Source: an uncultured Sphingomonadaceae bacterium (GTDB lineage Bacteria > Pseudomonadota > Alphaproteobacteria > Sphingomonadales > Sphingomonadaceae). Taken from it: a DNA stretch of 64,000 bases. Below, in pieces: positions 17,116 through 23,013 of the stretch. Where the stretch lies: contig CANLQE010000001.1 in the NCBI GenBank assembly GCA_947493215.1, forward strand, positions 2,419,404 to 2,483,403, written 5' to 3'. Numbering within the stretch: position 1 is the first letter of the stretch; the number at the start of each line of letters is the position of its first letter. The translations under genes and the position numbers were made by a program. The notes beneath the pieces are model-generated. The model made no database searches. It saw nothing but the letters and a program-made list of their open reading frames with translations, and was not told where the DNA came from.

Positions 17116-17484
17116 CTAAAGGGTATAGGGAATTCGGATACCCGGCATCTCTGACGGAAAATCCTTTATATTGCGCGTGACGAGAATGCGACCAGATACT
17201 TGGGCCGAGGCCCAGATAATCGCATGAGGTGAACCAAGCGATGGGCGCTGTTGGCGCATCAATGCGGCACGGCGAGATATTTCTTCATCCAGCTCGCTTA
17301 TCGCAAACAGCCGCAGAAACGCCTCGGTATCCGTTAGGGCCGATTCAGGCGCGCTGGCCATGATTTCGATCCAGCTTATCCGGCTGATCCACGGGCGACT
17401 GGTTCGTTGTAACTCTACACCTGCGCGCGGTTCGTTTTGGAGTGCATCCACCACGATTCCGGTATCAAAAAATGCTTCGATCAT
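17116..17484 (-). CDS. PIN-domain toxin, VapC-like
   Basis: 122-residue PIN-domain ribonuclease-like protein. The first acidic residue is D7 (FFDTGIVVDAL), the second E40 (SRISWIEIMA), and the tail has the normal TRNIKDFP (N105, D108). The position that is usually Asp in this family (typically a -DAII- or -DALI- motif) is His87 here, encoded by CAT at 17224-17226, in SPHAIIWA. This may weaken metal binding. Overlaps the antitoxin gene by four bases, as in most vapBC pairs. Sits between glmU and glmS. Confidence 0.85.
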   Translation of the reverse strand: MIEAFFDTGIVVDALQNEPRAGVELQRTSRPWISRISWIEIMASAPESALTDTEAFLRLFAISELDEEISRRAALMRQQRPSLGSPHAIIWASAQVSGRILVTRNIKDFPSEMPGIRIPYTL

Positions 17485-17720
17485 TCCAACCCGCCATCCC
17501 AGTCGCTGCCGAATTTACGTTCATAGCTCCGGTCATCACCTTGCGAACCATGACGCGCCCAAAGACCGAAATATTTAGCGATCCCATCCTGGCTTTCCCG
17601 CGCCCGGTAATCCACCACCGCCTCGCGCAGCAAGGCCGCACGCGACTTGCCCTGCTCCGCCGCAAGTGCATCGAGCCATTCAACATCTTCTTCAGGGAGA
17701 TCAGCAAGGATACGAGTCAT
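17481..17720 (-). CDS. Ribbon-helix-helix antitoxin, VapB-like
   Basis: 79 residues. The N-terminal MTRILADLPEEDVEWLDALA plus KSRAALLREAVVDYRAR has the beta-strand then two-helix pattern of CopG/Arc DNA-binding proteins; the acidic, Trp- and Gly-rich C-terminus (SDWDGGLE) would wrap the toxin. It is the first gene of the pair, and palindromic TGATATCA repeats immediately upstream make autoregulation likely. Confidence 0.85.
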   Translation of the reverse strand: MTRILADLPEEDVEWLDALAAEQGKSRAALLREAVVDYRARESQDGIAKYFGLWARHGSQGDDRSYERKFGSDWDGGLE

Positions 17721-17762: not shown

Positions 17763-18023
17763 TTAGAACGGTAGCTCGATCCTATGATCTTTCAGAACTT
17801 TTTTATAATGCTCAACGAGCCCCTCAAGTCGTTCGCATATTTCAAGCTGATCATAACATGCATCCGATTCTTTGTCGAAATTCTTAAGCGATTCTTTAGC
17901 TGAGACATAAAACGAATAAAGCGTATCACCCTGAATCAGAACCTCTGGAAATCGGCGCTCAGGGTGGCGCAATATCGCAGCATTTGTGGTGTCTGAGTAA
18001 ATTTCAACAGCTTCTTTTCTCAA
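17763..18023 (-). CDS. Small hypothetical protein, DUF6959-like
   Basis: 86 residues beginning MRKEAVEIYSDTTNAAILRHPERRFPEVLIQGDTLYSF and ending with a helical half (ESDACYDQLEICERLEGLVEHYKKVL). The N-terminal block resembles the widespread but uncharacterised DUF6959 family (recalled, not searched). It starts one base after the glmU stop and precedes the toxin-antitoxin operator, so it is part of the block lying between glmU and glmS. No function proposed. Confidence 0.7.
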   Translation of the reverse strand: MRKEAVEIYSDTTNAAILRHPERRFPEVLIQGDTLYSFYVSAKESLKNFDKESDACYDQLEICERLEGLVEHYKKVLKDHRIELPF

Positions 18024-20160: not shown

Positions 20161-21180
20161 TCAAGCTTTACGCCATTTTGTCCATAAATGGCGAGCGAGC
20201 ATGAGAGGTGGCATTCTGAGCCAATGGGATCGAATATAGAAGGCTTGCCGTGTGAACTTTCGGTTTTCCCGGCCCCAGCCGTCACGCGCCAACAGGCGAT
20301 GAATATAGAGATTGTCGGTAACTTTGGCTGGACCAGCGAGATTTTCACAAACAGGCGTGCCATATAGAAGGGCAGTCAGTCGAAGAGATCGCGCGAGATG
20401 CGGTTCTAGCTGGTGAAGTTTGGCGCGTGCGCCCAGTTCCATCCAGAAATTATCATCCACTTGGGCAAATTGACGGATCAGCTGATCGATATCCCACAAG
20501 TTGCGCAATCCTCCTGCTAGATCACCATCTGCAAAAAGATGCGCTATCGAATGGAGCAGCATATCGGCCGGTGCCATGACATAAAGCCCCGAATCCAGCC
20601 GAACCGCATTCTCGAGCATCGCACCGGCATTGGGTGTCGGGCCGGCGGTCAGTGGCAAGGTGGTGTGATGCACATCAATCATCCGGTCGCGCTCACGGTG
20701 AATCAGCGGTGGTAGCTCGTGCATATGATCGCGATAATATTGGTCGTCATAAGGATCGGGTTTCACCCACTCCCAACCAGCATCCAATAATAGCTCTTCT
20801 ACAGCGGAAAGCTCATCCCGCGCGACCATGATGTCGAGATCTCCGATGCTCCGGCCAACGCCGGCATCAAGATCCGCCGCGACATAAGCAGTGCCCTTCA
20901 TCAACACAGTTTTGCAGTTTAGTGACGTAAGAGCACGGCGCGCGCAATCTGCTTCCCAAAGCGCTTGTCTCCGAGCAAGATCAGTGGCTTGAATCGCGTC
21001 CTTCAGAACAGGCTGAACTTGTTCAGGCACCTCAATACCCGTCAAACGATGCGCCAAGCTGCCGATCAAGGACTCTGCGCGAGCGATACTGATCAAGTCT
21101 GTCCAGCACGCCCCATCGAGCGAAAGAACCATCCCAGGCTCGCGCAATGCATCGACCAGAGATTGAGCGTTACGCATCAT
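20161..21180 (-). CDS. Nucleotidyltransferase-family protein of the HprK-related/PqqD cluster
   Basis: 339 residues. The nucleotidyltransferase signature is KGTAY (95-99) followed by GRSIGDLDIMV (109-119) with the metal-binding pair D114/D116 (DLD), and a later conserved Asp/His region DVHHTTLP, as in the NTP_transf_5 group. Related proteins occur beside HprK-like kinases in paeninodin-type lasso-peptide clusters. ATG 21180 overlaps the stop of the kinase gene by four bases (an upstream in-frame start at 21195 is less likely). Last gene of the cluster; converges with gph three bases away. Confidence 0.85.
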   Translation of the reverse strand: MMRNAQSLVDALREPGMVLSLDGACWTDLISIARAESLIGSLAHRLTGIEVPEQVQPVLKDAIQATDLARRQALWEADCARRALTSLNCKTVLMKGTAYVAADLDAGVGRSIGDLDIMVARDELSAVEELLLDAGWEWVKPDPYDDQYYRDHMHELPPLIHRERDRMIDVHHTTLPLTAGPTPNAGAMLENAVRLDSGLYVMAPADMLLHSIAHLFADGDLAGGLRNLWDIDQLIRQFAQVDDNFWMELGARAKLHQLEPHLARSLRLTALLYGTPVCENLAGPAKVTDNLYIHRLLARDGWGRENRKFTRQAFYIRSHWLRMPPLMLARHLWTKWRKA

Positions 21181-22046
21181 GACAGCTTGTTCCACAAGCT
21201 ATCGATCAGTTCTTCCGCTTGCTCACCCGATTGATAATCCATTGCTTTGGTTGGAACCGTATCGACAAATTTGGTCAATGTCCGAAAACCTGTCTCGCCA
21301 AGCGCAACATAGTTGGTGGAGGCCTGGGTCAGTCGTACGAAAATCTCGCTCTTCCCCATGTGGCGCAGAATAGGATCATAACCAAAGCGCGGAAACAGAA
21401 GCAACGCGGGTCGGGCGGTATCCGCCATCTTTTGCACCGCATCGGCTGGCGGGATAATATGGCGAATATCGCCTTTGGGCGTCCCGGTCATCAGGGGGCC
21501 AAAGCGGCTCTCCGGCAAAATCGCCTGCATGGCGGCGATCGCCTCATTCTTCAGACTGATCAGGCGTGGAAAGCTATGCATCATGCCGGTGTCAGGATTG
21601 AGCAAGGCAAATTCATCGCCCATGAACCGCCAACCTTTTTCAGCCAGCATCGCGGAAAGCGTAGATTTGCCCGAGCCGGACAAACCGGTCATCAGCAACG
21701 CCTTACCGTCTTTCTCCACACTGCTGGCGTGTAGTAAAAGATGTCGTCGCCAACCCAGCGCCATTTGCAAGTTCATGCCCATTTCAGCCGCTAATAGGCT
21801 TTGGTTCAACGGCAACGGAGCTGCGTCGGGCAACCAAAAGTCGCCGGAAATGTGAACCGATGGCCGGATATAGCGTCGCCATGGCTTTTCGGGCTCCAAC
21901 CGGACGGTAAAATCTGCGTAACTGTCTTGCGATGCGGGATAGTCCCCATACAGCGCGGCCAATTGATCTAAAGGCCGTTGCCAAGTCGAGGCGACCCGGA
22001 AACGGGCGGGTCCAACGGTCAGATAAAGATGATGAAGCCCCGCCAT
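21177..22046 (-). CDS. HprK-related kinase A
   Basis: 289 residues. The C-terminal half is an HPr-kinase-like P-loop domain: LLLHASSVEKDGKALLM then Walker A TGLSGSGKSTL (120-130) and the acidic GDEF (143-146) at the Walker B position. The N-terminal ~100 residues match nothing I can name. True HprK phosphorylates HPr in sugar regulation; this family is instead found with PqqD-like and nucleotidyltransferase genes (the HPr-rel-A system), and a relative phosphorylates a lasso-peptide precursor. Start set at ATG 22046, seven bases after the PqqD-like stop; a longer frame to 22172 lies wholly over the preceding gene. Confidence 0.88.
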   Translation of the reverse strand: MAGLHHLYLTVGPARFRVASTWQRPLDQLAALYGDYPASQDSYADFTVRLEPEKPWRRYIRPSVHISGDFWLPDAAPLPLNQSLLAAEMGMNLQMALGWRRHLLLHASSVEKDGKALLMTGLSGSGKSTLSAMLAEKGWRFMGDEFALLNPDTGMMHSFPRLISLKNEAIAAMQAILPESRFGPLMTGTPKGDIRHIIPPADAVQKMADTARPALLLFPRFGYDPILRHMGKSEIFVRLTQASTNYVALGETGFRTLTKFVDTVPTKAMDYQSGEQAEELIDSLWNKLS

Positions 22047-22053
22047 CTGAAAT

Positions 22054-22332
22054 CTAGACCTGCTCCACAAGACCGAGCGTGCACAGCTCAGCGAGCCTTG
22101 CCAGAACGATGTCAGCGACATCCGTATTGTCTTCAAGATCATAGCTAGCCGAGAGCCGTTGCGCAACATCACTAGCGGTCAACGAATCTTCAGCCATAAC
22201 CTCTAATATCGCCGGCACCGGATCCGCGACCATATGCGTGACACCCGATGATTTTTGAAAAATCAGGGTCATACTATCCAGTGGATGCTGGATTATCCCA
22301 TCAAGGGCTGCGGTGCGGTAAAGCTGGCTCAT
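22054..22332 (-). CDS. PqqD-like peptide-binding protein (HPr-rel-A system)
   Basis: 92 residues with the PqqD winged-helix layout: beta strands at the start (TLIFQKSSGVTHMV), then helices (DPVPAILEVMAEDSLTASDVAQRLSASY) and LARLAELCTLGLVEQV at the end. PqqD domains act as RiPP recognition elements that bind precursor leader peptides and present them to modifying enzymes. Second gene of the four-gene cluster, 103 bases after the Tat-signal protein and seven bases before the kinase. Binding partner unknown. Confidence 0.85.
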   Translation of the reverse strand: MSQLYRTAALDGIIQHPLDSMTLIFQKSSGVTHMVADPVPAILEVMAEDSLTASDVAQRLSASYDLEDNTDVADIVLARLAELCTLGLVEQV

Positions 22333-22435
22333 TGGCGATTATACTATTCCTGATCAAGGCAAGTCATTTAAAACAAGCCGTTAGCATGAATATGTTAATA
22401 ACCGTTGGCTTTGAAGCCAAAAATCAGCGCGCTGG

Positions 22436-22864
22436 CTATCGCGGCATTTGCAGAGATGCGTAGCAGGTAAAGCCACTCTGTCCGGACTGCAGTCTGCGAA
22501 TGTAATTCACATAAGCTTTCGATTGATCATAGGATGTGCCGGGAAGGGACCGACCATTCATCGCGCGCTTCACTTCTTCACCGGTAAAATTACGGCCTGC
22601 TGGCGGAAATGCTCCCGGTGTATCGGGTGATACAATTTTGCCATCGGGCCCGATATAGCCGCCAGCGGCATGATTACCCGGCACTGGAATTTCACAGTTA
22701 AGCACTGAACCGGCAGTCTGCGCCAAAGCGGGCTTGATACTGACGATGGCGGAGGCTGTAACGGCACCCATCATCAGCGCACGGCGGCGTGTCACGACAG
22801 CTGCATTCTTGGAAGCAGCGTTCGATTCTGAAGATTGATGGTCTTCGTTTGGTTTGTCCGTCAT
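22436..22864 (-). CDS. Tat-signal secreted protein, possible client of the kinase cluster
   Basis: 142 residues: a polar N-terminus rich in Ser, Asn and Asp (about 27 residues), a twin-arginine signal VTRRRALMMGAVTASAIV ending at PALAQ, then a ~94-residue mature part with Cys near both ends (LNCEIPVPG and GFTCYASLQMPR), Gly/Pro-rich in the middle. No family recognised. It is the first gene of the run leading into the PqqD-like, kinase and nucleotidyltransferase genes. ATG 22864 is chosen; ATG 22888 is in frame but has a ribosome-binding site too close. Function unknown. Confidence 0.7.
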   Translation of the reverse strand: MTDKPNEDHQSSESNAASKNAAVVTRRRALMMGAVTASAIVSIKPALAQTAGSVLNCEIPVPGNHAAGGYIGPDGKIVSPDTPGAFPPAGRNFTGEEVKRAMNGRSLPGTSYDQSKAYVNYIRRLQSGQSGFTCYASLQMPR

Positions 22865-23013
22865 GGCTTTTAAAATTCCTCTGAACATCGCCCTTAAAAG
22901 GAAAAATGATTAAATGCGAGTAAACACTGGCATCAGAAAATGGGCGTCCATAAACGGGACAAATTGGCTGAAAAGCTTAACAAATCTGACTGTTTAAAAA
23001 TACATCTGGCTCG

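Follow-up and report, generated by a model that had tools for sequence, protein, structure and literature searches.

A candidate Tat-exported client for the HPr-rel-A kinase, PqqD-like protein and nucleotidyltransferase

Phosphorylating peptide systems and the HPr-rel-A family

The report on linear polyphosphorylated peptides (LPPs) of Bacillota describes a cyclase-free system consisting of a RiPP recognition element (RRE), an HprK-like kinase and an NTP transferase, with precursors of 35-200 aa and loci that lie inside capsular polysaccharide clusters (PMC13381572). According to the same text, the kinase LppK polyphosphorylates one serine of a linear peptide, at a site near the start of the core and not at its end, the NTP transferase had no visible effect in the host used, and the role of LPPs was unknown to their discoverers (PMC13381572). 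Related enzymes tailor lasso peptides. PadeK, ThcoK and SyanK are reported to act on the C-terminal serine of lasso precursors, ThcoK and SyanK repeatedly; SyanK comes from Sphingobium yanoikuyae, and the kinases of this group need a His-Lys-Asp-Asp set (PMC9266682). In pseudomycoidin, a nucleotidyltransferase (NTase) is reported to add a hexose to the serine phosphate (PMC8498205).

The HPr-rel-A trio of kinase, PqqD-like protein and NTase is a known, named family; what is new here is a proposed client with a common architecture. As far as their names go, the family models (TIGR04352, TIGR04353) specify no client. In the limited literature searched we found no paper naming the trio or its models and none on the client or its tail motif, and the main text of the RRE literature searched contains neither HPr nor kinase. 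The LPP report has none of the words Proteobacteria, Pseudomonadota, Tat and Sphingo- (PMC13381572).

The locus and its enzymes

The window analysed here is a stretch of 64,000 nucleotides from an uncultured Sphingomonadaceae bacterium. The open reading frame list and the sequence confirm four minus-strand genes (Table 1), co-directional and placed as in the preliminary description, with a gap of 7 bases between the PqqD and kinase genes (22047-22053) and a four-base overlap, ATGA, between kinase and NTase (21177-21180). The gene for the Tat-signal protein lies 103 bases before that of the PqqD-like protein. Its listed reading frame runs to an ATG at 22888; we preferred the ATG at 22864, the start common to close relatives.

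Table 1. Coordinates of the cassette and of its sequence motifs in the window
Feature	Position	Strand	Length, model or basis
Tat-signal protein, proposed client/precursor, no known family	22436..22864	-	142 aa
PqqD-like discrete RiPP recognition element	22054..22332	-	TIGR04353
HprK-related kinase A	21177..22046	-	TIGR04352
Nucleotidyltransferase (NTase)	20161..21180	-	PF14907
Kinase P-loop GLSGSGKST	21660..21686	-	Read in sequence and alignment
NTase DLD motif	20833..20841	-	Read in sequence and alignment
Twin-arginine signal region RRRALMMGAVTASAIVSIKPALAQ, possible RRE leader	22718..22789	-	RR, hydrophobic stretch and AxA by sequence/alignment
Client C-terminal motif T-C-Y-A-S-L	22451..22468	-	Ser at 22454-22456 is the proposed, inferred phosphate acceptor

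The trio is the HPr-rel-A system, as had been proposed: the kinase matches TIGR04352 at 240.9 bits (cut-off 200), the adjoining PqqD-like protein matches TIGR04353 at 53.4 bits (cut-off 35), and the NTase beside the kinase matches PF14907 at 160.3 bits (cut-off 31.2). Used as a query, the kinase protein has a single match in the host genome; the TIGR04352 model gives one further match elsewhere in that genome, of 21.8 bits and at P-loop level. The preliminary description had made its reading depend on conserved P-loop and DLD residues, and these are kept in the loci that we fetched from other genomes, many of them close relatives: kinase residues H106 and K127 in 147 of 148 rows, D144 in 148 of 148 and E145 in 147 of 148, and NTase residues D114 and D116 (the DLD motif) and D169 in 138 of 141. 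Judged by these catalytic residues, kinase and NTase look active. Sequence searches of the two against solved structures gave P-loop-level or chance matches, with HprK itself at E 0.67.

For the PqqD-like protein, a profile search against solved structures by sequence gave nothing clear, and the likeness emerged from a fold search. Its AF2 model (pLDDT 85.5) has strands followed by three helices. The top Foldseek match, and the only one below 0.001, is TbiB1 with leader (E 7.3e-4); further matches include a lasso B1 protein (E 3.4e-3), sactisynthase RREs and PqqD. The nearest structures are lasso recognition elements solved together with leader peptides, and with these modest E-values the protein models as a lasso-type recognition element with the winged-helix RRE fold.

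HMMs and Foldseek thus bear out that the locus has enzyme types in common with the tailoring of paeninodin, namely an RRE fold, an HprK-like kinase and a PF14907 protein. A lasso peptide cluster would have the same three types, and we regard that reading as extremely improbable, given that PF13471 (the lasso B2-type protease) has 0 matches in the host genome, that no macrolactam cyclase was seen by eye among the reading frames of 16-30 kb and that the client is 142 aa long. The preliminary description had likewise seen no cyclase and no leader protease, which stands. It had also seen no short precursor, and it put the Tat-signal protein first among the genes without proposing it as the substrate; this protein is very probably the client.

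The locus is like paeninodin-type lasso clusters and pseudomycoidin in its HprK-like kinase and NTase types and in the precedent of a C-terminal serine (PMC9266682, PMC8498205). Unlike paeninodin-type lasso clusters as described there, it has no cyclase or B2 protease and a longer, apparently exported client, and unlike the C-terminal serine of lasso precursors, the motif serine of the client has 5 residues after it. Judged from genes alone, the locus is like the LPP system in its discrete RRE, HprK-like kinase and NTP transferase type without a cyclase; it is unlike it in its Tat-type leader and conserved C-terminus, where LPPs have a YxxPxV-type leader and variable C-termini (PMC13381572). 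By eye, the LPP leader pattern YxxPxVLxHQxIxFETxxS is absent from the window's client, and an LPP-type SipW-like signal peptidase and MsbA-like transporter are absent among the window's reading frames of 16-30 kb. Many clients from other families carry P-x-hydrophobic in their signal region. The earlier view of a peptide- or protein-modifying HPr-rel-A system akin to paeninodin tailoring agrees with the data, and among published systems LPPs are a nearer relative than the lasso family.

Neither NCBIfam nor Pfam has a family that matches the Tat-signal protein at E<=1, PHROGs offers nothing better than E=0.1, and comparison by sequence with solved structures gave chance-level matches only; nine clients of other loci also gave chance-level matches against NCBIfam and Pfam. 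Tat-signal HMMs do not match the window's protein at E<=1, and none reached cut-off on the clients tried from other loci. TatC is present in the host genome. The model of the client has a pLDDT of 61, and its residues 141-150 average 49, suggesting a loosely ordered tail, which neither proves nor excludes access by the kinase.

The cassette is flanked by divergent phoR-pst genes and by gph-glmU-glmS, a setting that we also saw by eye in four fetched loci (L142, L143, L146, L156). The annotation of a Sphingomonas parapaucimobilis plasmid has the same setting and labels the client 'hypothetical protein'; among 72,556 plasmid records searched, the kinase was found in 5 and the client in 1. The phoR-pst neighbourhood prompted a search for a PhoB box 5' of the client, a candidate that we rejected: 64 named loci score no better than shuffled sequence, and the 10-of-12 match in the window is equalled by 21 of 320 shuffled stretches. 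Between glmS and glmU there are further small genes on the minus strand. A PIN-like reading frame (17116-17484) overlaps a ribbon-helix-helix-like one (17481-17720), and the pair is likely a toxin-antitoxin system, identified by eye; a small DUF6959 protein (PF22281, 75.2 bits) is encoded at 17763-18023.

A proposed client with constant ends in and beyond Sphingomonadales

A client profile of 18 rows was run on 296 Sphingomonadales genomes at E<=0.001, and the kinase at E<=1e-20. The kinase is present in 128 of the 296. Client and kinase occur together in 81 genomes and the kinase alone in 47; the client alone is found in none, and neither in 168, so that the client is absent from all 168 kinase-less genomes (Fisher p=1.8e-39, kinship ignored). 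Restricting the client to E<=1e-10 gives 68, 60, 0 and 168 in the same categories (p=1.8e-31, kinship again ignored). In the window's family, kinase and client occupy an identical set of 70 genomes, in which three weak client matches (G088, G293, G318) were all upheld by fetched loci (L170, L171, L172). Ten of the 81 client matches, all in one genus (g9, family f5), are weak, with E between 1e-3 and 1e-6, and fall mainly within the signal region; no fewer than two (G064, G090) are away from the kinase, and we therefore do not count them as evidence of a client. In the 47 kinase-positive genomes without a profile match, a client was recognised from its position, its Tat-type start and its tail, and this in fetched loci only.

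These tests ignore relatedness, and we therefore give more weight to gene arrangements. Among the best 80 of 143 client relatives, 77 named loci have the order Tat protein, PqqD, kinase and NTase on one strand, and in the remaining three (L076, L108, L129) the available piece stops before the kinase. Within these 80, the closest named relatives are from Sphingorhabdus, Parasphingorhabdus and further Sphingomonadaceae. Client and kinase lie far apart in six fetched genomes of a single genus, yet both are retained, and in one genome the set is split, client and PqqD being adjacent on one strand (L170) and kinase and NTase elsewhere (L144). The neighbourhood comparison across sphingomonads suggested in the preliminary description has yielded a co-occurring candidate client, the Tat protein (81 genomes, all kinase-positive), and the genes, whose independent scatter would have spoken against a common system, keep together. 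From co-occurrence and gene arrangement, we take the Tat gene to belong to the HPr-rel-A cassette.

Further loci, selected for spread and not at random, comprise 73 stretches that surround a kinase and seven that surround a displaced client. The genomes behind the 73 are 14 of the 70 kinase-positive genomes in the window's family, 23 of 58 in the rest of the order and 36 of 51 outside it. Counts below refer to the 70 loci whose kinase scores at least 100 bits, leaving out L213, L214 and L215 (44-61 bits) and the client-fetched stretches L163, L165, L167, L169, L170, L176 and L178. Scripts and inspection by eye together gave a linked client reading frame in 59 of the 70 and a client elsewhere in the genome in seven; no client was found in the four others (L195, L196, L203, L216). 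Among the 59, L171 shows the tail and lacks the Tat-type start where its contig ends, and the client of L082, with an in-frame stop in the assembly, was counted as motif-lacking.

These four loci without a client would fit an alternative in which the trio modifies another molecule and the Tat protein is a co-expressed partner, for instance an exported reader of the product. We consider that improbable: the presence of an RRE implies that the client is a peptide, no other gene was seen to recur in the operons inspected by eye, apart from a glycosyltransferase gene found in 14 loci (see below), and in L170, where the set is split, the client has remained beside PqqD. On sequence evidence, the Tat-signal protein is likely the 'missing' client.

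Client reading frames of other families range from 128 to 294 codons, stop to stop. Their middles look unrelated between families, some being rich in Asp, Gly or Asn, and the constant parts are the Tat-type start and a tail motif, [ST]-C-[WYFLIVM]-x-S-[FILVAMW] within the last 45 residues, found in 47 of the 59 linked clients. It reads TCYASL in the window; in many loci from other classes of the phylum it reads SCWxSF and stands at the extreme C-terminus or close to it. In the window's client, C142 and S145 (numbered from the ATG at 22888) are invariant in 46 rows. Because the first search of other families had partly used the tail motif itself, it was repeated with a motif-blind script, which found a Tat-type reading frame in the slot in 50 of the 70 loci; 40 of these 50 carry the motif, and two of the ten that do not (L174, L216) are spurious reading frames. 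We regard this blind count as the fairer of the two. In shuffled mature parts the motif occurs at 0.0013 per client (0.13 percent). Among 1676 called genes 60 have the motif, a figure that is not a clean control, as the crude gene calling missed some clients.

The 12 tail-lacking linked clients are all from outside Sphingomonadales. In a kinase tree of 78 tips, 11 of them make up a clade of their own (support 0.955), with L202 outside it. Such a match between tail and kinase lineage is what a kinase that reads the tail would lead one to expect; it does not prove this, and common descent by itself could produce it as well.

How the tail is used bears on a second alternative, in which the Tat protein is the client but its tail serves for docking or for a disulfide, the phosphate being placed elsewhere, for example on Ser/Thr near the signal peptide. 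LppK, which is reported to modify S3 of the LPP core, would be a precedent (PMC13381572). Of 88 clients in the window's family, 87 have exactly two cysteines in the mature part, one of them within the tail motif, and tail-lacking clients often carry another short stretch, [ST]-P-G-x-[WF] in six of the 12 (L184, L185, L207, L208, L211, L212) and S-H-G-x-W in one. The [ST]PGx[WF] stretch could be the acceptor or docking site of these clients. On the other side, lasso kinases are reported to act on a C-terminal serine (PMC9266682), and Ser accompanies Cys in 40 motif-bearing clients of other families, a weak point as the pattern itself requires Ser. We hold a phosphate outside the tail to be the less likely outcome.

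Three loci (L145, L154, L220) have two client-like reading frames near a single kinase, both bearing the tail motif. Two distant kinase relatives (L213 and L215, 48 and 61 bits) have longer N-termini that look PqqD-like by eye and adjoin short reading frames (about 70 aa) whose start is rich in arginine; these relatives are perhaps a fused version with short precursors.

Proposed modification and links to polysaccharide genes

We think it rather probable that the four genes form a single system that has the Tat-signal protein as its client and would modify it in four steps. The PqqD-like RRE would bind the cytoplasmic client, probably at its Tat-type leader, and bring it to the kinase. The HprK-like kinase would then phosphorylate the serine of the [ST]-C-hydrophobic-x-S tail, perhaps repeatedly, and the PF14907 NTase would add a group to the serine phosphate, much as a hexose is added in pseudomycoidin; where the locus is of the Sphingobium type, a GT4 glycosyltransferase may join the NTase in elaborating the phosphate. 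Finally, the modified client would be exported through Tat. That the cassette phosphorylates or nucleotidylates is what we infer from such analogies.

The glycosyltransferase is of the GT4 type, and its gene occupies the space between client and PqqD in all 14 named loci where these two are about 1.2 kb apart. These loci (L089-L139, among the best 80 of 143 client relatives) are mostly from Sphingobium, and Pfam was run on one of them. L123 has a different, longer insert at this place, and other loci have no GT4 gene. L108 also has a GT4-type gene, at the end of its contig. The presence of a GT4 gene in the operon fits a sugar on the phosphate.

Exosortase A is present in 123 of 128 kinase-positive genomes, the five exceptions being drafts, as against 110 of 168 kinase-less ones. 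In the host genome it lies about 71 kb from the kinase, beyond the window. Outside the order, the kinase loci read by eye sit among apparent exosortase-linked sugar genes. A tentative extension, which we consider rather unlikely as a whole, is that the clients are widespread proteobacterial exported glyco-phosphoproteins, with the Tat signal as RRE leader and a phosphate-linked sugar on the serine of [ST]CxxS, that form a surface or matrix element linked to exosortase A and exopolysaccharide.

A proposed client with a short tail motif turns the 'function unknown' of HPr-rel-A into a simple kinase test. If the proposal is true, lasso tailoring, LPPs and a proteobacterial system for exported proteins would belong to a single family of phosphorylation systems guided by an RRE, with polysaccharide loci close by in Bacillota as well as in the proteobacterial cases.
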